From an uncultured Pseudomonadota bacterium (GTDB lineage Bacteria; Pseudomonadota; Gammaproteobacteria; Steroidobacterales; Steroidobacteraceae), in the NCBI GenBank assembly GCA_903832085.1, contig CAIKZZ010000010.1, forward strand, positions 39,989 to 103,988: a stretch of 64,000 nucleotides of DNA. The letters are read 5' to 3'. The notes under the pieces are model-generated. The model had not been told where the DNA came from. It ran no database searches and worked only from the letters and a program-made list of their open reading frames with translations. Both the position numbers and the translations under genes were made by a program. Shown here piece after piece: positions 6,271-16,419 of this stretch. Position 1 is the first letter of the stretch; every line of letters starts with the position of its first letter.

Positions 6271-8493
6271 TTAGTGAGAAATTCGAATCTGTGCTGCTTT
6301 TTTTGAGCTATTAAATTCGACCCATGCTTCACTCAATATATAGGCATGTATCGCTTTAACGTCTGTTGTGGTGAGCACATCATCCCACCGCGCCATGCCC
6401 TTATTTACATATATACCCTTTAGAACAATATCGTTGAAGACATTATTCGTTTCAGTAGACATGCGCCGCAAATCAGGCAGCAACCCACGCCCAAAGACGT
6501 GACAGCGTGCACAGTAGCGACTGTATAAAATTTCACCGCGACGCACGTCAGCGTTTGCCTGCATTGCAGGAGGTTTTGGAAACGAAGCCTCGACACTTAA
6601 CGCAGGCTTTGGCACCACGGCACCACCCAATTTAAAAACAAGCACGCGACCCATATTGCCATAACGATACGCAGCAGAGTCTGCGGTAAGCGCAGCGCCC
6701 GTATTAGCGCCTCCATACCCTGCGAGCACAGCGACATATTGAGTGCTATCAATTCGATATGTCATCGGCGCTGCCATGATGCCTGTACCGACATCGAGCT
6801 GGAGAAGCCTCCTTCCTGTATCAGCGTCATATACATTCAAGTGACCCTGAACATCACCTTGAAACACGAGACCGCCATCAGTTGACAAAACGCCACCATC
6901 CCAACCCGAGGCCGTGGGTTGCTCCCAAAGCACTTTACCAGACACGACATCTAATGCTCGTAAGTAGCCACGCGTCGTTAAAGGCGCAGACACTCCCTTC
7001 GTCAGATCAGCAAGTGGTGGCACAGAACCAAACAGAGACTTCATCTGCTTAGGATCATAAAATTCTGGCGGAAAGCCAGCCACCGTAAATGTCCCCTCCA
7101 ACAAGCCAACTGGGCGCTTATCGGTCGTGATATACACACCGGGCTGCTCAATCACGGGAATAAACACACGCGCGTGACCTGAATCAAAGGACATAGGCAT
7201 CCAGTTATGAGCGCCACCCATCCCTGGAAAAATCAGTTTCGGGCCGTGACCATAATCTATTGCCGGGTTGGGTATCGGCCGATGTGTCTGTGAATCGATC
7301 CCCTTGGTCCAGTTCACATATGCAAAATTATGCGCTGCAAGAACTTCACCTGTTGCGCGATCAAGCACGTAGAAGAAACCATTTTTTGATGCCTGCATCA
7401 GCACCCGGCGCTCTCCATGACCGAAGTCGACGGTAGCCTGTATTAGTTTCTGAGTACTGTCATAGTCCCAACGATCACCAGGTGTCGTCTGGTAATACCA
7501 GGCTAATTCACCCGTAGCGACATGAATAGCGAGTATTGATGCAGCATACAGATCGTCACCGCCACGACGGCCGTCTGCCGTAATGTCATAGGGTGAACCG
7601 TTACCTGTACCAACGTATAGCAGCCCTAGGTCTGCGTCGTAGCTGATGCCGTCCCACACGGTCGCGCCGCCGCCCGCAGACCATTCGTGATGCGCATCCC
7701 AGGTCGTTAGTGCTTGAGCCAAGTGAGGCTGGTCTTGCGGTCCCTCTGCAGGATTGCGCGGGACGGTATAAAACCGCCATACAAATGCACCACTCATCGC
7801 GTCAAAAGCAGCGACATAGCCACGCACACCGGCAAAATCAGAACCAGCGCTACCAACAATAATACGTCCATCTGCAAATACTGGCGCTGCAGTCAGCGTA
7901 TACGGATGTTTATTGTCGCGCTGAGGTAGCGTATCTACTTTCCAGACGCGCTTGCCCGTAGCCGCATCAATCGAATGCAGATACCCATCCAAGGCACCAA
8001 CGTACACGCGCCCACCCCACACAGTCACGCCACGATTGACGGCATCACAGCACGCATAACGACCCCACTGACCATCAACCTCAGGATCATAGACCCACCG
8101 CTGCTTGCCGGTGGCAGCGTCGAGGGCATAAACACGACCGAAGTTTCCAGAAAAATACATCATGCCATCGATGACGAGTGGTGTGGCCTCAAGTCCACGG
8201 TAAGTTCCTAAATCATATGCCCACGCAAATCCTAGTGATGACACATTGGCGGAATTGATCTGCTGCAACGCTGAGTGGTAGGTACCATCCGGACCACCGC
8301 CCACTGTCAACCACTGATCAGGTTCGGTAGCAGCGCGATGCAATCGGTCTGCAGTTACGTTACCTACTGCGGTTGCAGCAGCTCCACCATCCACAGTCGG
8401 TGGATGGAAGCGGTTACAAGCAGCGAATGCCACCAGGGACACAGCCGTCAGCACGCCCAAGGCTAGACACGACCATTTCGACCATTTACCCAC
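6271..8493 (-). CDS. PQQ-dependent dehydrogenase with C-terminal cytochrome c (lipoprotein)
   Basis: A quinohemoprotein-type dehydrogenase of about 740 residues: an eight-bladed PQQ propeller with repeated LDAATGKxxW blade motifs, then a c-type haem site CARCH near the C-terminus. The vicinal cysteine pair that stacks on PQQ is present (RYACCDAV), as are GNGSP and a WDYD segment near the catalytic Asp. The usual calcium-binding Glu of the GAEYG motif appears as Asp (GSDFAG). The start is set at a GTG with AAGGGG upstream, because this gives a clean lipoprotein signal ending in LVAFAAC; a longer ATG start at 8574 would overlap the preceding gene. It probably oxidises an alcohol in the periplasm and passes electrons to a cytochrome. 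No pqq biosynthesis genes are visible here. Confidence 0.87.
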   Translation of the reverse strand: MGKWSKWSCLALGVLTAVSLVAFAACNRFHPPTVDGGAAATAVGNVTADRLHRAATEPDQWLTVGGGPDGTYHSALQQINSANVSSLGFAWAYDLGTYRGLEATPLVIDGMMYFSGNFGRVYALDAATGKQRWVYDPEVDGQWGRYACCDAVNRGVTVWGGRVYVGALDGYLHSIDAATGKRVWKVDTLPQRDNKHPYTLTAAPVFADGRIIVGSAGSDFAGVRGYVAAFDAMSGAFVWRFYTVPRNPAEGPQDQPHLAQALTTWDAHHEWSAGGGATVWDGISYDADLGLLYVGTGNGSPYDITADGRRGGDDLYAASILAIHVATGELAWYYQTTPGDRWDYDSTQKLIQATVDFGHGERRVLMQASKNGFFYVLDRATGEVLAAHNFAYVNWTKGIDSQTHRPIPNPAIDYGHGPKLIFPGMGGAHNWMPMSFDSGHARVFIPVIEQPGVYITTDKRPVGLLEGTFTVAGFPPEFYDPKQMKSLFGSVPPLADLTKGVSAPLTTRGYLRALDVVSGKVLWEQPTASGWDGGVLSTDGGLVFQGDVQGHLNVYDADTGRRLLQLDVGTGIMAAPMTYRIDSTQYVAVLAGYGGANTGAALTADSAAYRYGNMGRVLVFKLGGAVVPKPALSVEASFPKPPAMQANADVRRGEILYSRYCARCHVFGRGLLPDLRRMSTETNNVFNDIVLKGIYVNKGMARWDDVLTTTDVKAIHAYILSEAWVEFNSSKKAAQIRISH

Positions 8494-8539
8494 CGGCGAC
8501 CCCTTACAAGTCAACGCCTCTTCTGCGTCAAGTGGACTA

Positions 8540-10612
8540 CTAGTGGACTGATAACGTGGCCCGTGCGCGAGCACGTATATAGAGCCTCAAACTCTCGACA
8601 TCCTCTACCGAGAGCTCATCAAACTTAGGCATATTGTTCAATTCGAGCGCTCCACCACGGACCACGCCAGCAAACGATGTCGCACTCATTGCCACCGCAG
8701 ATGCACGTAGATCGGGTGCAAACCCTGCTGCGACAACGCCAAGACCGTGACAGGCAAGGCACCGTGTCGCATAAATCGCTTCGCCCGCCTTTGCTCGCAT
8801 AGGGTCGATTGCAAGGGTTGGCTCATCCAATGGGATGGCTTGCTCGGGCGATGGCTGCTTAGGCATTGGAGCATGGCCATCCAATACAAAGGTCAGTAGC
8901 TGATGCGTTTGGCGGCGCGCAACCCAGCCGTGCTGTGCCGCAAGTGAGCCTAGATAGGCAGGCCCTGCCGCGCCCCAACCCGCCACCACAGTCACATACT
9001 GATGACCCCCAACCGTGTATGTAATCGGCGCACCGCTGATGCCAATGCCAACGTCCTGGGTCCACAGCTGTTTACCCGTGAGCGCGTCGTAGGCATTGAA
9101 GCGTCCATCAGCCTGTCCTTGGAAAACAAGGCCGCCCGCTGTGGTCATCGTGCCTCCATTCCAAACGCCAGGCGTCGGCACGGTCCAGCGTGGTTTTTGC
9201 GTCACCGGATCCCAAGCCACTAATGCACTCGTGCCTGCATCCTTCGGCGCATCACCACTACTTAATACAAGTCCGGTATTCAGCTCGGTCTTTTTGAAGA
9301 CAAAATGTTCCTTATCTATACCGCGATCATCAAAGGTACCGGCCATTTCAATAGTCGGCACATAGACCAAACCTGTCCATTGGTTGAATGACATTGGTTG
9401 CCAGTTATGAACACCGATACTAGAGGGCCACTGGGTAACGACACCGTCTGGGTAGCGCGCATTAGCCGCCTCCACAGGTCGACCCGTGGTCAAATCAACG
9501 CGCTCAGCCCAGGTCACTTTGCCGAGTTTTTCGGCTGACAATACTTTGCCCGTATAGCGATCAAGCACGTAAAAGAATCCATTCTTAGGTGCGTGCAAGA
9601 TGACCTTATGCGGCACCCCATCAACAGGAACCGTTGCGAGCGTGATATCCATCGCTGAGACAAAATCCCAACTCTCGCCGGGGGTCGTCTGGTAGTGCCA
9701 AACATAGCGCCCGGTCGCAGCATCCAGCGCGACAATCGCGCATAAAAACAAGTTATCTCCGCCTAAGGGACTACGGACCTTGCGATTCCAAGGGGCACCG
9801 TTACCGACCCCAATATAGATACGATCCAGCTCAGGATCATAAGTGATGGCGTTCCATACGGTTCCACCACCTCCGATCTTCCACCATTCACCAGTCCATG
9901 TTTTGGCTGCCATGGCCATGGCATCGCTTTCAAAACCATCCGCAGGATTACCAGGCACGGTATAGAAGCGCCACAACTGTCGACCGGTCGCTGTGTCATA
10001 AGCCGTCACATAACCGCGGTTTGGGCCCCACTCGGAGCCTGCATTTCCAATAATTACGCGGCCACCAAAAACGCGCGGCGGCCCAGTAATTGTGAGCTCA
10101 TTGTTCTTGTCGGTCGTTTGCACGCTCCACACTTGGTGCCCCGTCTTCGCGGACAGCGCAATCAAACGACCATCTGTGGTTCCCACAAACACACGTCCCT
10201 GCCAGTATGCAATACCTCGTGGTCCCCAGGTATAACGCAGCTTGCGTCCCGCCACCTTTGCGACTTCTGGATCATGGCGCCAAAGCAACTTCCCAGACCG
10301 CGCATCCACTGCGTGAACCAAGCTTTGTCCCACAGTGAAATATAAAATGCCGTCGACAGCCAAGGGTACGGTGGCGCCGTTTTGAACGTGTCCAAGATCA
10401 AGCGACCATGACAGCCCCAGACGACCCACGTTGTCACGATTCACCATCGCTAGTGGGCTCGAGTGCTGCTCGCTGTAGGTGCGTCCATAACTTGGCCAAT
10501 TGTGCCCATCAGCTTCATTCGCGAGTGCCTTGCCATCGATCTCCGATCGAGCAGAGGCCGCCACTAGAACGAGCGCGCAGATCGCACTCCAGACGATGTG
10601 TCGTGAACTCAT
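8540..10612 (-). CDS. PQQ-dependent dehydrogenase with C-terminal cytochrome c, lacking the vicinal disulfide
   Basis: A 690-residue paralogue of the downstream gene: Sec signal (ALVLVAASARS), PQQ propeller and a C-terminal haem site CLACH. It keeps the calcium Glu (GSEWGPNRG), GNGAPWN and the GESWDF region with the catalytic Asp. Where the neighbour has the CC pair, this protein reads LRYTWGPRG, so the disulfide ring common in methanol and ethanol dehydrogenases is missing. The ATG at 10612 is preferred over 10624 because GGGGG lies 5 bases upstream of it. It is separated from the next dehydrogenase by only about 46 bases, so the two are probably co-transcribed. Substrate unknown. Confidence 0.86.
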   Translation of the reverse strand: MSSRHIVWSAICALVLVAASARSEIDGKALANEADGHNWPSYGRTYSEQHSSPLAMVNRDNVGRLGLSWSLDLGHVQNGATVPLAVDGILYFTVGQSLVHAVDARSGKLLWRHDPEVAKVAGRKLRYTWGPRGIAYWQGRVFVGTTDGRLIALSAKTGHQVWSVQTTDKNNELTITGPPRVFGGRVIIGNAGSEWGPNRGYVTAYDTATGRQLWRFYTVPGNPADGFESDAMAMAAKTWTGEWWKIGGGGTVWNAITYDPELDRIYIGVGNGAPWNRKVRSPLGGDNLFLCAIVALDAATGRYVWHYQTTPGESWDFVSAMDITLATVPVDGVPHKVILHAPKNGFFYVLDRYTGKVLSAEKLGKVTWAERVDLTTGRPVEAANARYPDGVVTQWPSSIGVHNWQPMSFNQWTGLVYVPTIEMAGTFDDRGIDKEHFVFKKTELNTGLVLSSGDAPKDAGTSALVAWDPVTQKPRWTVPTPGVWNGGTMTTAGGLVFQGQADGRFNAYDALTGKQLWTQDVGIGISGAPITYTVGGHQYVTVVAGWGAAGPAYLGSLAAQHGWVARRQTHQLLTFVLDGHAPMPKQPSPEQAIPLDEPTLAIDPMRAKAGEAIYATRCLACHGLGVVAAGFAPDLRASAVAMSATSFAGVVRGGALELNNMPKFDELSVEDVESLRLYIRARARATLSVH

Positions 10613-10850
10613 TGACGCCCCCATATACGATGCCAGACATTATCCGTGCCCGTCCGATTGTAGCCAGAAGCAGAGCAAATAGGCGACGCTATACTGCTTT
10701 TTAGTGTCGAGGGCTCCTAAACAATCAGCCTACACCGCTCTGGCGATGCAGCCCTAGCCAAGAAAAATCAGGCTCATATCGATAAACACAGCGTTATACT
10801 ACTATCCACCAAACCGCCGACGCACCGTTCAGCCAAGAACCCCAGGAATC

Positions 10851-11405
10851 GTGTTGCGCCTTAAAAATCTATGCTGTAGCGCTTCTTGGTTACGCAGGCC
10901 AATACTGCTCACTGGCCTTTTACTGATAACGAGCACTTGGAGTTCTGCCAACGGACTCCAATCCCTGAAGCAAATTCGGGAACGTGGGGTTGTTATGCAA
11001 CACTTTGAGATCAGCTGCGCTGCAGCAACCATAGCAACAGTGCTGACCTATGGCTTTCATGATGCGGTTGCAGAACGGCCTATTGCTGAGGGGATGCTTC
11101 GCTACACATCCGCCGCTAAAGTGAAATCTCAGGGCGGTTTTTCGATGCTCGATATGAAGCACGTGCTTGCAGATCGCGGTTATCATGCTGCCGCATATGG
11201 CAAACTCAGCCTTATCCAGCTCAAACTATTTCACGCGCCGATCGTCCCAATAGACAGTTTCGGAAATCATCACTACGTTGTTTTCAATGGCGTTCATGGT
11301 CAAAACGTACGTCTTGCAGATCCAGCATTTGGAAATCGCGAAATGCCGATAGACACTTTCACAAAACTTTGGATCGACGGACTTGCCTTTGTTGTAAGCA
11401 AATAG
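10851..11405 (+). CDS. Periplasmic C39 family cysteine protease (FapD-like)
   Basis: A 184-residue protein with an N-terminal hydrophobic signal (LLTGLLLITSTWSSANG), then a single papain-like C39 domain. The oxyanion Gln50 and catalytic Cys56 have the canonical spacing (Q-x5-C in MQHFEISCAAA). The His lies in HHYVVFNG (about 138) and the Asp in ADPAFG. C39 enzymes cut double-glycine-type leaders; most are fused to ABC exporters, whereas free exported ones are known from Fap amyloid operons (FapD). The GTG start has AGGA 4 bases before. The next gene starts 4 bases after the stop and encodes a FapF-like barrel. The protease assignment is strong; the FapD comparison is an inference from architecture and pairing. 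Confidence 0.85.
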   Translation: MLRLKNLCCSASWLRRPILLTGLLLITSTWSSANGLQSLKQIRERGVVMQHFEISCAAATIATVLTYGFHDAVAERPIAEGMLRYTSAAKVKSQGGFSMLDMKHVLADRGYHAAAYGKLSLIQLKLFHAPIVPIDSFGNHHYVVFNGVHGQNVRLADPAFGNREMPIDTFTKLWIDGLAFVVSK

Positions 11406-11409
11406 ATCG

Positions 11410-12462
11410 ATGAAAAACACACTCTCTACTGTTTTAATATTAGTTACGTTATTAATGACTGGTACGCTTGCGCATTCAGCAGCACTGGAGCCTGTAAGTC
11501 CACCAGATGAATTAGCGGCCCTACGTTTACAGCTCGCTGCACAACAAGCTATAAACCATGCTCTCCAAGAGCGCATTAACGCGCTTGAAACTGCGCTAGA
11601 AGAGCATGCTAGTGGCGCTTCAGAACAAAAATCTCTAGACGCGACTGCACCAGCACCTACAGACCTCGTGGCAACCGACACCAACACAGCAGTTGCACAA
11701 TCACTGATTACAAAGCAGCTTTTGATACAAGCCCCTGGAACTATCCGCTTGACTCCAACCGCAAACTGGAGCCACTCTGGCGCACAAAGTGAGCACTATA
11801 ATTATTCGCGTTTCGCCGTGGGCGTTGGCCTGGGATTACCTGCTGGACTCACCGCAACCGCTGTCATCCCCTACACCTTGGCCGATACCTACTATGGCTC
11901 GAACAGTGGCTTTGATGACCTTTCGCTTGCTCTGCAAAAGCAGTTTCTTGCTGAAACGACCCGTCTGCCAACGATTGTTGGCAGCTTGAACTTCACCAAC
12001 AATACCAGCAACAAAGCATTTCAGGATCCCTCGATTGGAGGGGCATTCAAATACTACGATCTCACTCTTTCGGCATTTAAGACGCTCAGCCCAGTTGTCA
12101 TTTATGGCAATCTCTTTTATTCGCGCGCTGTAAAGCGGTACTTCGCCTTATATTATGAAAGCCCCTTCAACGGCACGATCCAACCGGGCGATACCAAGGG
12201 CATAAGTCTTGGCGTGTCACTCGCGGCGACACCCGCTATCTCAATTAATACAGGACTTACCTTCGATTTCGGACGCGGTACACGTTACGCGCGCGACGGC
12301 TTACCGGAATATACAGGCGCCGGAGTCACTGACGGCCGCCTGAGCCTAGGCGCTGGCTTTTTATTGACTAAACACTGGTTTCTCGGAATAACAGCCGAAG
12401 CCGGCGTCACCAAAGACGCATCGGACTTTATTTTCTCAATCGCACTACCCTATCGTTTTTAG
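11410..12462 (+). CDS. Outer membrane beta-barrel with N-terminal coiled coil (FapF-like secretion porin)
   Basis: 350 residues: a signal peptide (about 1-24), a heptad-rich stretch from about 30 to 75 (ELAALRLQLAAQQAIN and what follows) predicting a coiled coil, an acidic/Ala-Pro linker, then a long region of alternating strands ending in SIALPYRF, the typical C-terminal barrel signature with terminal Phe. FapF of the functional amyloid system has the same order (coiled-coil plug, linker, 12-strand barrel). The gene follows the C39 protease after 4 bases, so the two form a pair. It ends 11 bases from the convergent GT41 gene. It could also be a generic transporter-type porin; amyloid subunits FapB/C are not seen nearby. 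Confidence 0.72.
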   Translation: MKNTLSTVLILVTLLMTGTLAHSAALEPVSPPDELAALRLQLAAQQAINHALQERINALETALEEHASGASEQKSLDATAPAPTDLVATDTNTAVAQSLITKQLLIQAPGTIRLTPTANWSHSGAQSEHYNYSRFAVGVGLGLPAGLTATAVIPYTLADTYYGSNSGFDDLSLALQKQFLAETTRLPTIVGSLNFTNNTSNKAFQDPSIGGAFKYYDLTLSAFKTLSPVVIYGNLFYSRAVKRYFALYYESPFNGTIQPGDTKGISLGVSLAATPAISINTGLTFDFGRGTRYARDGLPEYTGAGVTDGRLSLGAGFLLTKHWFLGITAEAGVTKDASDFIFSIALPYRF

Positions 12463-12473
12463 GACAGCGCCTT

Positions 12474-14741
12474 TTATTGTGGCGTGTGGTCTATAGATGG
12501 GACATGTACATCAGCCAAATCGCCTGCTTGATAGGCAGCCGCAATCATTTGATATCCACGCTCTAAGTGCTGCGTGTGGCGTTTCACGTTGAACAGCTGA
12601 CTAGTGGCAATATTATCAAGACGTGACTTAAAGCCATTAAGAAGCTTCGGCTCCATAGCGAGCTTCACAGCATAGCTTACATAGGCATCTAGGTCCGTAA
12701 CGATTAAGTCAGCTAGGCCTGCAGCAGTCAGAACGCTCGCACCCATGCGCGCTGCAAGCGTCTGTCCTAAGCAGGTCAGTACCGGCACACCAACCCGTAA
12801 CGCATCGCTCGCCGCCGTCCCAGCACTATAGGGCTGCGTGTCTAGGTACAGATCAATCACTTTCAGTCGCGAAAGATATGCGTCTGGCGCCACTCGCTCA
12901 GCAAATACCAGACGATCCAACGTGATTCCAGAACGCTGCGCTTCACGTCTTAGGTTTTCCACGACCTCATGGCTATCGGCATAGAGAAATAACATGGACC
13001 TTGGAACCCGATCCAAGACGGTCATCCACGATTTAAAGACTTCCGGAGTCATTTTGTAATTGTTATTAAAACAACCATACACAAAAGCATCGTCAGAAAG
13101 GCCCAGTTCCTGCCTCGACGAAACGACCGGGGACACTAGTCTTTTCGAATCATTTGGCTGGTAGGTCGGCAGATAAAGTATGCGCTCCGTGTAGTATTTC
13201 CGCATTTGGGACGGCACAAGTACAGGATCTGCGACCAAATAATCCATGAACGACGCGCCACTCGTGCCAAGGAAACCAAGGTAACTCACCTGCACGGGCG
13301 CGAGTCGCTTACTAAATACTGCCGGGCGCGCACCCGCCGAAAAACCATTGAGGTCGACCGCAATATCGATCTGATGTCCCCGCATTTGTGCGACGACTTC
13401 TGAATCAGATAACATATCAGCATCGATCCAGTGCTCAAAAGCAGTGCGAACACGCGTCTGCAGCGGGTCGTCAGGACTGCTCCGCAGTGACACAGCATAT
13501 AGCTCGATCAATGAGCGGTCATGGGTCTCGAATACCTCGGCCATTAGTAAAGACACAGCATGCGAACGAAAATCGCTAGATACATACGCAACGCGCAAGC
13601 GACGTCCGCTTAATGGTGCGATTACAAGGCGGGTTTCATCACTTTCAAAGCGCTCAGCCCATATAGCAGCCGCTTGGCGCAGAACGTCTGGCTCCTTAAC
13701 TAAGCTCAGTGCGCAGAAGGGAGGACATACTCGTTCTCCGGCCTTTATACCTTCGACAAGACGCTGCAAAGCAGCATCAGCACCGGCCCAATCGCATAAT
13801 TTGAATTGAGAATGCAGCAAAAGCCCAGGAACATCGTGCAGCGCGCTATCGAGCGCTAAGGCACGCCGAAAGCAAGTTATCGCCTTCGCGTGTAACTCGA
13901 GGTCCATCAGTACGCCGCCTTGATTTCGAAGCGGGATGGCATCATTGATATCCATTCGGGCCGCTTGCTCATAGCACCTAAGGGCAGCCAGCCACTCCCC
14001 ACGACACTGCAGGACCACCCCTTGCGCATTCAGCGCGACCGAGTCTTGGGGATTTAGCGTGAAGGCGCGCTCAAAGCTCGCCATCGCTAAAGCGAGATTG
14101 TGTTCTGCAAGGTAAAACGTGCCGAGTGCGCGGTGAATAGTGGCGGACTCCGGATCCAGTTCGACTGCACGCGATAGACTGCGCAAGGCTGCACTGGGAC
14201 GCCCCATTTTCTGGCAGGTCAGAGCGTATCTCCAATGCAATTCAGCACTGGCAGGAGCTATATCGAGCGCCTCCTGAAAACAAAGCGCGGCTTCTGAAAA
14301 CTTCTCTTCGGCATGTAAAGATCGACCCAAGCCAAGCCGAGCTTCGATGTGCGCACGATCAAGTGCGTAAGCTTTTTTATATAGCGCTTTGGCTACTGAC
14401 CAATCGTTTTGGTCAGCATGCAGATCGGCGAGTGCGGTATAGATAATGGCACTTGGTACATGCTTATTGAGAAACGCGGTCAGTAGAGACTTTGCTTTCT
14501 CTGACCCGCCCACGGCGCGCGTCGCGGCGGCATAACCGCATAACGCGAGAGCATCGTGTGGCTCCCGCTCATGTATATATTGATAAGCTTTTAGTGCGAG
14601 CTGATGGTTACCTACACGCTCAGCCTTCTGCGCGGTTGCGTGCAGTGCATTTTGGGACGCTACGTCCCCACGATCAGCAAGCACCTGGCCGATAAAACGC
14701 AACCAGGACAGAGCTCTTCGGGAGAGGCTTAGTTTTAACAT
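12474..14741 (-). CDS. TPR-repeat GT41 (O-GlcNAc transferase / SPINDLY-type) glycosyltransferase
   Basis: A 755-residue protein in two halves. Residues about 30-330 are tandem 34-residue TPR units (patterns such as AELHWRYALTCQKMGRPSAA). Residues about 370-740 are the GT41 catalytic region: AYVSSDFRSHAV (conserved His), IDIAVDLNG, GTSGASFMDYLVAD, CFNNNYKMTPE (nucleotide-sugar-binding Lys region) and YSAGTAASDALRVGVPVLT. The family adds GlcNAc or other sugars to Ser, Thr or Cys of proteins in the cytoplasm. The NxHTT block of eukaryotic OGT reads SAGTA, a variation also tolerated in bacterial members as far as I recall. It lies between the C39/barrel pair and the exported peptide gene, so the peptide is a candidate acceptor, by inference only. 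Confidence 0.85.
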   Translation of the reverse strand: MLKLSLSRRALSWLRFIGQVLADRGDVASQNALHATAQKAERVGNHQLALKAYQYIHEREPHDALALCGYAAATRAVGGSEKAKSLLTAFLNKHVPSAIIYTALADLHADQNDWSVAKALYKKAYALDRAHIEARLGLGRSLHAEEKFSEAALCFQEALDIAPASAELHWRYALTCQKMGRPSAALRSLSRAVELDPESATIHRALGTFYLAEHNLALAMASFERAFTLNPQDSVALNAQGVVLQCRGEWLAALRCYEQAARMDINDAIPLRNQGGVLMDLELHAKAITCFRRALALDSALHDVPGLLLHSQFKLCDWAGADAALQRLVEGIKAGERVCPPFCALSLVKEPDVLRQAAAIWAERFESDETRLVIAPLSGRRLRVAYVSSDFRSHAVSLLMAEVFETHDRSLIELYAVSLRSSPDDPLQTRVRTAFEHWIDADMLSDSEVVAQMRGHQIDIAVDLNGFSAGARPAVFSKRLAPVQVSYLGFLGTSGASFMDYLVADPVLVPSQMRKYYTERILYLPTYQPNDSKRLVSPVVSSRQELGLSDDAFVYGCFNNNYKMTPEVFKSWMTVLDRVPRSMLFLYADSHEVVENLRREAQRSGITLDRLVFAERVAPDAYLSRLKVIDLYLDTQPYSAGTAASDALRVGVPVLTCLGQTLAARMGASVLTAAGLADLIVTDLDAYVSYAVKLAMEPKLLNGFKSRLDNIATSQLFNVKRHTQHLERGYQMIAAAYQAGDLADVHVPSIDHTPQ

Positions 14742-14825
14742 TCGATGATCAGCACTTCAGATAATCTAACGGCTGAGCGCTTGTTCAGGCCATCATGGAC
14801 ATGGCTGCGATTATCCACCAGCCGT

Positions 14826-14852
14826 AAAAAAAAGACCGACTCGCGCCGGCCT
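14826..14852 (-). terminator. Rho-independent terminator of the small peptide gene
   Basis: On the minus strand a GC-rich stem (GGCCG...CGGTC, with one G-U pair) is followed directly by a run of T residues. It lies about 40 bases after the stop of the 73-residue peptide gene and before the GT41 start, so the peptide mRNA probably ends here as a short abundant transcript. Confidence 0.7.
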
Positions 14853-14890
14853 TAATTTCGTAGCAACATTCCCGACCGGGAACATTCTAC

Positions 14891-15112
14891 TTAATGGCGG
14901 TGATGCGAACCACCGTCTGAGCCGCTGCCACCGCAGCTGCCTTTACCGGCGACGAACTTGCTCATTTCTGCATCTGTCAGAGCCGCCGCCTGATCCGACG
15001 AATCTACCGCACGCGCAGTTGCCTGCTTATCAGCCGAATGGGCGAACGCAACGTTCGACACAGCAGCAACAAGCAATCCCGCTACCAAACCAAGTTTACG
15101 AACTAAACGCAT
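14891..15112 (-). CDS. Small exported peptide with double-glycine-like leader motif
   Basis: 73 residues. Residues 1-24 are a textbook Sec signal (MRLVRKLGLVAGLLVAAVS..., cleavage after VAFA). Residues 45-58 read LTDAEMSKFVAGKG, resembling leader ends of bacteriocin precursors (L-[ST]-D-x-E-[LM]...G-[GA]). The tail from Lys57 is only 17 residues, rich in Gly and Ser, with one Cys (60) and a His-rich end (SHHRH). AGGAG lies 9 bases before the ATG, and a terminator follows. A leader-like motif behind a Sec signal implies periplasmic rather than ABC-coupled cleavage, which fits the exported C39 protease 3.5 kb away. No known family is recognised with certainty; the precursor role is inferred. 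Confidence 0.7.
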   Translation of the reverse strand: MRLVRKLGLVAGLLVAAVSNVAFAHSADKQATARAVDSSDQAAALTDAEMSKFVAGKGSCGGSGSDGGSHHRH

Positions 15113-15303
15113 AATTTTATCTCCTGACTACTTACACTCTGGAAAGCCGCCCTCTTGTTAGGCGCCGGACTACCATTCATTTACTGCGACCTGCGTCACA
15201 ATAGCAGGGAAAGTGATGAATTTGGAAATATTGATACTGAGGTCCAAGCCCTTTTGTATGATTTGGTGCGGAATATTTAACATAATCCTGTCACTAACCA
15301 GTT

Positions 15304-16419
15304 TTAACTAGGGATATCCCATACGCACCGGCGTTGCCACTCGGATACCGTAATGATCTCGCGAGCAGCGACATCCCATAAAATGCATTTAAGTGACGCA
15401 AGGACGCGGGAGAGCGGGATACGCACGACTTCTGCAAAGCGCGCTTCGTTTTTCCAGTGAAATGCGGCAAGCCGATAGTTTGGGATCGCTGTCGATAAAT
15501 GGTGCACATGATGAAATGCGATATCAAGCGTGAACCAATTTAACCACCGTGGGAGCAGCAAAAAACTTGTTCCATGAATAGCGCCCTCATCGACGTGCCA
15601 TCCAGTCGTTGTGCTTGCATAGGATTTGTCAAAATTGTGCTGTACGGTAAATAGAACGATGCCAGCAGCGCCTGCTAGGGCAATAGACGCAAGACATATA
15701 CCAACCACAAGCCCAGACCCACAGGCTCTGTAGACACAGACCCACATTCCTATGAAGACTATATTATGCAGCGACATATAGCGGAACTCTGCGGACGTTT
15801 TCCAGTAGCGCGTTTGATAGGTCGCCACGTGCGCTCGTAAAGAGTCGCGAGGACTAGCGATTTTCTGACGCAGCATATGCCAGCACAATCCAATGCTTCC
15901 GCGGAGCCATGTATAGCGTGGATTAAAAACGAGATAGATAAACCCCGCAATCGGTGACGCATAGACGCTGCATTTCCAACGGTAGAATCGCTTGCTACCG
16001 GATGTCATAGCTGCGTACTCCGTTATAGAGCGAGTCGCATATGGCCCACGATATACCTCCCAGTCACCGTTATGCGCGTGATGATAGTCGTGATTCTTTG
16101 CCCAGACATATTGTGGCATTCCCGTCAGCACACCCAAGACAAATCCCATAATACGGTTTGTCGATCGATTCTTGAATAGACTGTAGTGACCACAGTCATG
16201 CATCAAAGTAAAAGCTCGTAAGGTGAATAAAGCGAGCACCGGAATTAAGGCAAGCAAAAGCCACACTGAAAAATTGACCGCTTTCGCGGCTAACCACCAG
16301 AGCATTACGATCGGCACTACAGTTGTCGCGACCTGAATGATCGCAATGTGATCCGCGGCAGCAAAATTCTTATCACGCAGAGCAATGCGCAAATGCCGGA
16401 TGTCCTCGAAGAGTGCCAC
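15304..16419 (-). CDS. Membrane fatty acid desaturase / hydroxylase family protein
   Basis: 371 residues with paired hydrophobic helices and the three histidine boxes of di-iron membrane desaturases: HDCGHYSLF (near 95), HDYHHAH (near 131) and HHVHHLS (near 308). These enzymes introduce double bonds or hydroxyls into acyl chains or carotenoids, using ferredoxin or cytochrome b5-type electrons. The GTG start is backed by AGGAG 8 bases upstream. It is about 190 bases upstream of the peptide gene on the same strand, and the peptide gene has its own ribosome site. The substrate is not predictable; the delta-12/omega-3-like architecture is one option. Confidence 0.87.
   Translation of the reverse strand: MALFEDIRHLRIALRDKNFAAADHIAIIQVATTVVPIVMLWWLAAKAVNFSVWLLLALIPVLALFTLRAFTLMHDCGHYSLFKNRSTNRIMGFVLGVLTGMPQYVWAKNHDYHHAHNGDWEVYRGPYATRSITEYAAMTSGSKRFYRWKCSVYASPIAGFIYLVFNPRYTWLRGSIGLCWHMLRQKIASPRDSLRAHVATYQTRYWKTSAEFRYMSLHNIVFIGMWVCVYRACGSGLVVGICLASIALAGAAGIVLFTVQHNFDKSYASTTTGWHVDEGAIHGTSFLLLPRWLNWFTLDIAFHHVHHLSTAIPNYRLAAFHWKNEARFAEVVRIPLSRVLASLKCILWDVAAREIITVSEWQRRCVWDIPS

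Follow-up and report, generated by a model that had tools for sequence, protein, structure and literature searches.

In the closest described system, the Fap functional amyloid system of Pseudomonas (FapABCDEF), a periplasmic C39 protease is combined with a plugged coiled-coil barrel of the outer membrane. FapD acts from the periplasm, with its active-site Cys required for secretion of FapC (PMC5557850; this and the other papers are cited from partial text), and its substrate has been called yet to be determined (PMC6173800). Co-localised fapD and fapF homologues are already known, since a 2018 report placed them in five additional phyla, the accessible portion of its text naming no cargo (PMC6173800). 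Also known is the gonococcal nap island, which combines a C39 protease (NapP), a FapF homologue (NapF) and short GG-motif peptides that promote autolysis in gonococcus; napP and napF lie at opposite ends of this island, and a holin-like protein, NapH, has been suggested for the inner membrane (PMC11798529). Here, we describe a gene pair encoding a C39 peptidase and a FapF-like barrel in a 64,000-nucleotide stretch of DNA (the window) from an uncultured Pseudomonadota bacterium of the Steroidobacteraceae (assembly GCA_903832085.1, contig CAIKZZ010000010.1, positions 39,989 to 103,988, forward strand). We propose that the pair is a minimal peptide export system, in which a small peptide, whose gene lies 2.4 kb from the pair, would be trimmed and released by a periplasmic C39 peptidase and the barrel, a reading to which we assign a probability of roughly 0.74.

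The first gene of the pair (10851..11405, + strand; GTG start) encodes a free C39 peptidase of 184 amino acids (aa) with a Sec-like N-terminus. The protein carries the Peptidase C39 domain (PF03412, 45.6 bits vs a cut-off of 22), and its presumed catalytic residues, Q50, C56, H141 and D157, are without variation across 23 aligned C39 sequences. Its AlphaFold2 model matches the peptidase domains of PCAT1 and ComA (best E 6.0e-7). With these peptidase-containing ATP-binding cassette (ABC) transporters, and with LahT, the window system shares the C39 fold and the register of a double-glycine leader; in contrast to them, its protease is free, without an ABC transporter, and predicted to be periplasmic, and the leader follows a Sec-like signal. 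The curated cut-off was reached neither for the FapD family (NF058616; 84.4 of 330 bits, E 6.9e-24) nor for the FilB family (NF050078; 78.4 of 475 bits). The NF058616 cut-off is a strict one: an Aeromonas protein that adjoins a FapE match (locus L035) scores 248.9 bits.

The second gene (11410..12462, + strand), starting 4 bases 3' of the C39 gene, encodes a FapF-like outer-membrane barrel of 350 aa. Its predicted model combines a barrel, an N-terminal plug and a coiled coil, and is closer to FapF than to any other solved structure compared, with window barrel residues 90-350 aligning to FapF residues 88-406, a range that contains the plug of FapF. The model places a periplasmic coiled-coil helix at residues 32-66 (11503..11607, + strand) and a plug helix at residues 94-101 (11689..11712, + strand). 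Within the coiled-coil helix lies the trimerisation motif R-h-x-x-h-E (PMC6173795), here R55-I-N-A-L-E60, which 19 of 21 aligned barrels share, as do 43 of 50 barrel homologues (own included), vs a shuffle mean of 4.1. The score against the FapF family (NF058560) was 33.3 of 700 bits, below the curated cut-off; for scale, the L035 Aeromonas barrel scores 371.3 bits.

Because neither protein reaches the FapD or FapF cut-off, we do not file the window pair as a Fap member. The pair resembles Fap in uniting a periplasmic C39 protease with a plugged coiled-coil barrel, in the barrel fold and in the R-h-x-x-h-E motif, whereas it differs in scoring under both curated cut-offs, in lacking the E98-K401 salt bridge of FapF and in its candidate cargo of only 73 aa. 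The folds of both proteins are known as predicted models. An initial annotation of this DNA had noticed a free Sec-signal C39 protease followed after 4 bases by a coiled-coil barrel, which our analysis confirms, and had likened the two to FapD and FapF. That likeness holds for architecture, FapF (including its plug region) being a better fit for the barrel than any other solved structure compared, but not for family membership (84 of 330 and 33 of 700 bits). The gene pair also recurs in other genomes, as that annotation had proposed to check: a single scan of named genomes yielded 23 C39 loci, 21 of which contain a barrel at E <= 1e-3. In thirteen of these (L007 to L019), the C39 and barrel genes are at most 11 bases apart or overlap, with overlaps counted from the first Met of the barrel frame and some of them overstated.

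Among the open reading frames (ORFs) around these pairs, we observed small proteins with a Sec-like start followed by a recurring motif, such as LSAAQMDQVVAG and LTEAQMEKIVAG. This motif is in the same register as the published consensus of C39 leaders, L(-12)xxxE(-8)L(-7)xxxxG(-2)G(-1) with a hydrophobic residue at -4, the double-glycine leaders that dock in a groove of C39 domains (PMC6363468, PMC6959990). Unlike classical double-glycine leaders, the motif near the pairs comes after a Sec-like signal, a placement consistent with a protease that is itself exported. A fixed pattern combined with a hydrophobic stretch matched 25 of 4,425 ORFs in the 23 named loci (18 loci positive). It matched none of these ORFs when they were reversed, and in 60 shuffles it matched 1.35 on average and never more than 4; control DNA from the same genus (118 kb with 1,653 ORFs) gave no match. 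With a profile built from the pattern hits, a leader gene was found in 19 of the 23 loci, which include the near-duplicates L011 and L012; further leaders near a pair lie outside the profile rows (two in L018, one in L054 and two more in L052).

The co-localisation of leaders and pairs extends to whole genomes. A profile of 21 leaders with 41 model positions (A3), used at E <= 0.02, gave 42 matches over 19 whole pair-bearing genomes: 32 run through to the leader end, and the other 10 stop at or before model position 30. Thirty of the 32 full matches lie inside the locus of the pair, and the remaining two are on separate contigs of the fragmented L010 genome. Twenty full matches had served as rows of A3; the 12 that had not include 10 in the locus, two of these being near-copies of rows. 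In a set of 60 related genomes that included the window's own, only three of the 40 matches listed span signal and leader, all beside the pair of genome G036 and one of them a row of A3, the rest being partial. These distributions bear on a different reading, which gives the leading part to the barrel, as a COG4313-like channel for uptake or efflux, leaves the C39 peptidase only the trimming of the barrel linker, and treats the leader gene as a separate matter. Such a reading, which we consider quite unlikely, leaves unexplained why leaders of the Sec plus double-glycine type are found close to the pair (19 of 23 loci) but scarcely in the rest of the genomes searched; moreover, a 2018 review states that C39 peptidases had not been reported in operons with COG4313 channels (PMC6173800).

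The predicted mature peptides of the leader proteins, 15 of which were tabulated (L007, L008 and L014 being near-copies), are 17-106 residues long; two Cys, spaced 4-6 residues apart, occur in six of them, a single Cys in six and no Cys in three. The paired Cys, found in L009, L012, L016, L018 (two genes) and L019, would suit a small disulfide loop. None of ten leader peptides other than that of the window exceeded a cut-off when scanned against families. The C39 gene is separated from the barrel gene by leader genes in L020 and L024. Cargo size is not always small, as illustrated by L023 proteins of 291 and 915 aa. The larger of these (L023:6147-8891, + strand), encoded upstream of the pair in an Omnitrophota metagenome-assembled genome (MAG), is repetitive and Ser/Ala/Asn-rich with a Sec-like signal and the leader LSDGQMDQIAAG; provided that the MAG is labelled correctly, it is presumably a very large cargo from outside Pseudomonadota.

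In the window, the candidate cargo gene (14891..15112, - strand) encodes 73 aa, arranged as MRLVRKLGLVAGLLVAAVSNVAFA, HSADKQATARAVDSSDQAAA, LTDAEMSKFVAG and KGSCGGSGSDGGSHHRH, that is, a Sec-like signal, a linker, a double-glycine-type leader and a 17-residue tail. The predicted Sec signal covers residues 1-24 (15041..15112, - strand; assigned by eye), and the second leader, LTDAEMSKFVAG (14945..14980, - strand), has L at -12, E at -8, M at -7, F at -4, A at -2 and G at -1, in the register of double-glycine leaders, with Met at -7 and small residues, Ala-Gly, at the end. Cleavage is predicted after G56, which would leave the mature peptide KGSCGGSGSDGGSHHRH (14894..14944, - strand). A ribosome-binding-like AGGAG site (15121..15125, - strand) precedes the ATG by 8 bases, and an intrinsic-terminator-like stem of 9 pairs with a T run (14832..14853, - strand) lies 3' of the gene; this stem counts for little, because nine of its class were found vs a shuffle mean of 6.5.

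Evidence that this ORF belongs to the leader class came from a second profile (A4), for which 13 leaders of closer loci were used and the window sequence was left out. On the window's own genome, A4 matched the 73-aa ORF with E 2.4e-4 as its sole leader-spanning match, the next match (E 0.09) covering model positions 1-21 only. The best match of A3, of which the window sequence is likewise no part, in the same genome, at a loose limit, was window 14942-15088 (- strand; E 0.10). Furthermore, the window peptide is homologous to a leader protein of the L010 genome, L120 (36% identity over 75 aa; E 8e-12, the value for a single pairwise comparison), and a second protein of that genome, L129, which is ended by a contig edge, is 30% identical over 70 residues. 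The tails of L120 and L129 are Gly-, His- and Ser-rich, resembling that of the window peptide, which has no Pfam or NCBIfam family match. The predicted mature peptide contains Gly, His, several Ser and one Cys, and Asn/Gln-rich repeats, as described for Fap amyloids, were not seen in it; this composition hints at a metal-binding or microcin-like function rather than at an amyloid. The initial annotation, which had noted FapB, FapC and FapE as absent nearby, overlooked this gene on the other strand; a missing cargo is not supported, while its suggestion of a reduced outer-membrane secretion system with another cargo is supported by our data.

From these observations, we infer a route in which Sec would carry the precursor over the inner membrane with loss of the first signal, after which the helix LTDAEMSKFV would dock in the hydrophobic groove of the periplasmic C39 enzyme and be followed by a cut after Ala-Gly, removing the second leader and freeing the mature peptide. 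The freed peptide would then exit through the barrel, predicted to be trimeric, once the periplasmic coiled coil has moved the plug helix. The C39 step would parallel that of FapD, which acts in the periplasm with an active-site Cys.

Several points weigh against this export model. The cargo gene lies outside the operon of the pair, 2.4 kb off and on the opposite strand, signal peptides were assigned by eye, and the strict C39 catalytic-residue pattern was matched in 104 of the 120 homologues listed. The salt bridge E98-K401, which pins the plug of FapF and is required for FapC secretion (PMC5557850), is not conserved: in the sequence alignment, the window barrel has Ala at both positions, and among 21 aligned barrels the Lys is present in none and the Glu in 17. 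Four of the 23 loci (L010, L026, L027 and L028) have no leader nearby; in L010, two leader genes sit elsewhere in the genome, and the L028 contig begins next to the C39 gene. As for the window peptide, its A3 match (E 0.10) is level with two partial matches, and at the limit of E 0.02 the matches listed for A3 include none from the genome of the window. The fixed leader pattern, which misses F at -4, matched 0 of 827 window ORFs; a protein database search requiring shared 5-residue words returned only the 73-aa protein itself; and the 13 leaders of A4 were hand-picked after the tree, the window peptide being clear only with this profile. A back-translated DNA pattern of the leader likewise had no match in the window's own genome, because of the Ser at -6 and the Phe at -4 in the window leader.

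The weak first score and the lack of a diverged homologue in the database search would also be expected if the 73-aa ORF were a chance match and the true cargo of the pair lay elsewhere. This we regard as unlikely, given the far lower E value with a closer profile that excludes the ORF, the homology to L120 over nearly the entire length of the ORF, and the presence of an AGGAG site and a terminator-like stem on a gene only 2.4 kb from the pair.

To place the pair among its relatives, we compared C39 proteins across genomes. A C39 match at E <= 1e-10 was obtained in 19 of 346 genomes sampled from the order, the window's own among them; the same-order proteins (own excluded) are 33-39% identical to that of the window, a short fragment in genome G013 is 43% identical, and identity in distant taxa reaches 60%. 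In a 45-row tree, the window C39 falls in a set of 12 with proteins of Chromatiaceae, Betaproteobacteria, Limnohabitans and others (support 100/97), its nearest neighbour being the Limnohabitans protein of L017 (99/84). In all 12 members of this set, both genes are adjacent with nothing between them. Fifteen same-order proteins (L055-L069), 33-36% identical to the window C39, are in the other half of the tree, and two others, L052 and L054 (39% identical), are on the window's side and both have leader genes. The simple reading of these sequence relationships is that the pair moved between lineages. Metagenome data also contain two proteins (P0002 and P0122) that are 82-83% identical to those of the window and probably belong to one pair.

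In 14 other genomes of the same genus, we found no DNA match to window 10625-15321 except an 80-base piece of the neighbouring GT41 glycosyltransferase gene, with up to 20 candidates scored per genome. This DNA search is blunt, as it missed the C39 fragment that a protein search found in G013, a genome of the same genus. There, the short C39 fragment (L053:9759-10365, + strand) overlaps a short segment that is barrel-like and lies in a different frame, and no leader gene was found in the 20 kb examined; these fragments are a decayed copy of the pair.

We also weighed whether the window pair is the remnant of a Fap operon that lost fapA, fapB, fapC and fapE, leaving two genes without cargo or serving amyloids elsewhere in the genome. 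FapD and FapF are indeed the nearest named families, the C39 and barrel genes of the 15 same-order loci L055-L069 are apart or on opposite strands in a Fap-like layout, and G013 keeps only a fragment of the pair. However, the window C39 groups with the set of 12 and apart from those 15 loci, the whole set keeps both genes adjacent, and the presumed catalytic residues are intact; a remnant appears very unlikely. No FapE gene lies between the C39 and barrel genes of the window, and a FapE search of its genome gave no match, as was also the case for control genomes. FapB- or FapC-like amyloid subunits were not noticed in the translated ORFs around the pair, which were inspected by eye without a model search. 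The term Fap-like for L055-L069 rests on layout and tree, since NCBIfam gave no names for the large Ser/Asn-rich proteins of these loci.

The gonococcal C39 match, which we take to be NapP, is 34.5% identical to the window protein (tblastn). The nap island and the window locus both contain a C39 protease, a FapF homologue and a short peptide with a GG motif (AG in the window); they differ in gene order and partners, and the window peptide has its own Sec-like signal. Searches for the C39 protein among mobile elements returned two phage records, both labelled Acinetobacter phage, and 28 plasmid records, none with at least 60% identity. An island of odd base composition was discarded as an idea, the GC content near the pair (49-51%) not being distinctive vs 48-57% in the profiled stretch. 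Separately, a 'Thermoleophilia' MAG and a Stutzerimonas stutzeri genome (L011 and L012) carry the same C39 protein and peptide gene, and the label of that MAG is probably wrong.

Between the barrel and cargo genes, the window encodes a protein with tetratricopeptide repeats and a GT41 (OGT-like) glycosyltransferase domain (12474..14741, - strand), whose link to the system is unproven. Its position would fit a glycopeptide system comparable to glycocins, with GT41 modifying the peptide at Ser or Cys ahead of its export; the predicted mature peptide has several Ser and one Cys, and in L017, whose C39 is the nearest tree neighbour, a GT41/GT61 protein lies directly 3' of the barrel. Yet among the loci examined GT41 was seen at only these two pairs, L017 has an additional glycosyltransferase upstream, 10 of 15 genomes of the genus encode a GT41, and another copy is present in the window's own genome. 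The window protein is 35-37% identical to the genus copies, nearly the 39% that it shares with that of L017. Having considered GT41 as a part of the system, we set it back to an improbable alternative, as it is common in the genus and similarly close to the other copies. On the other side of the pair, 5' and on the other strand (window 6271-10624, -), are two adjacent large proteins resembling pyrroloquinoline quinone (PQQ)-dependent dehydrogenases, which by eye end in a cytochrome c part.

Seven Fap- or Fil-like loci were viewed for comparison, and in four of them a neighbour of the pair bears a Sec-like start and then a GG-type leader (assigned by eye). These are L036:8543-9220 (+ strand; ITDYELATMRGG), L061:9298-9660 (+ strand; LSSSTLESLRGG), L065:8570-9583 (- strand; VPDAELARLHGG) and L034:7399-7872 (+ strand; VASSKLDDVRGG). 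In the others, the FapE match of L035 ends in GR, L033 ends in GQ, and in L055 none was noticed by eye. The double signal may therefore hold for the whole group, being seen beside four of the seven loci with two more ending in GR or GQ.

The Acinetobacter Fil system resembles the window system in having a C39 protease, FilB, and in the match of FilC to the FapF model (E 1e-15); it differs in that FilA of L033 has 288 aa and is followed by further genes, and the window C39 is under the FilB cut-off. FilA (DUF6160; L033:6652-7515, + strand) has a Sec-like start and then, by eye, MDDAALSAATGQ in the register of C39 leaders, where FilB might cut it. No paper joining FilB with FilF was found in the literature searched. 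Nor did that literature, which left subscription papers and preprints outside, contain the Sec-plus-double-glycine cargo class as the substrate of a free protease.

Taken together, the comparisons raise the tentative idea, which we hold at somewhat less than even odds, of a general outer-membrane route in which any protein with a Sec signal and then a double-glycine-type leader is trimmed by a periplasmic FapD-type protease and exits through a FapF-type plugged barrel, with Fap amyloid, Fil and Nap as special cases. The pair in the window hints at what FapD, the protease of the amyloid system, cuts, and the substrate signature, a Sec signal followed by a double-glycine-type leader in C39 register, makes the questions of the FapD substrate and of the cargo of such pairs testable together. 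If our export model is true, the signature would offer a handle on secreted peptides overlooked by standard searches, for which neither a family match nor an ABC exporter serves as a marker. If the general route is also true, it would point to a hidden class of Gram-negative secreted peptides, a few dozen residues long and rich in Gly, His or Cys.
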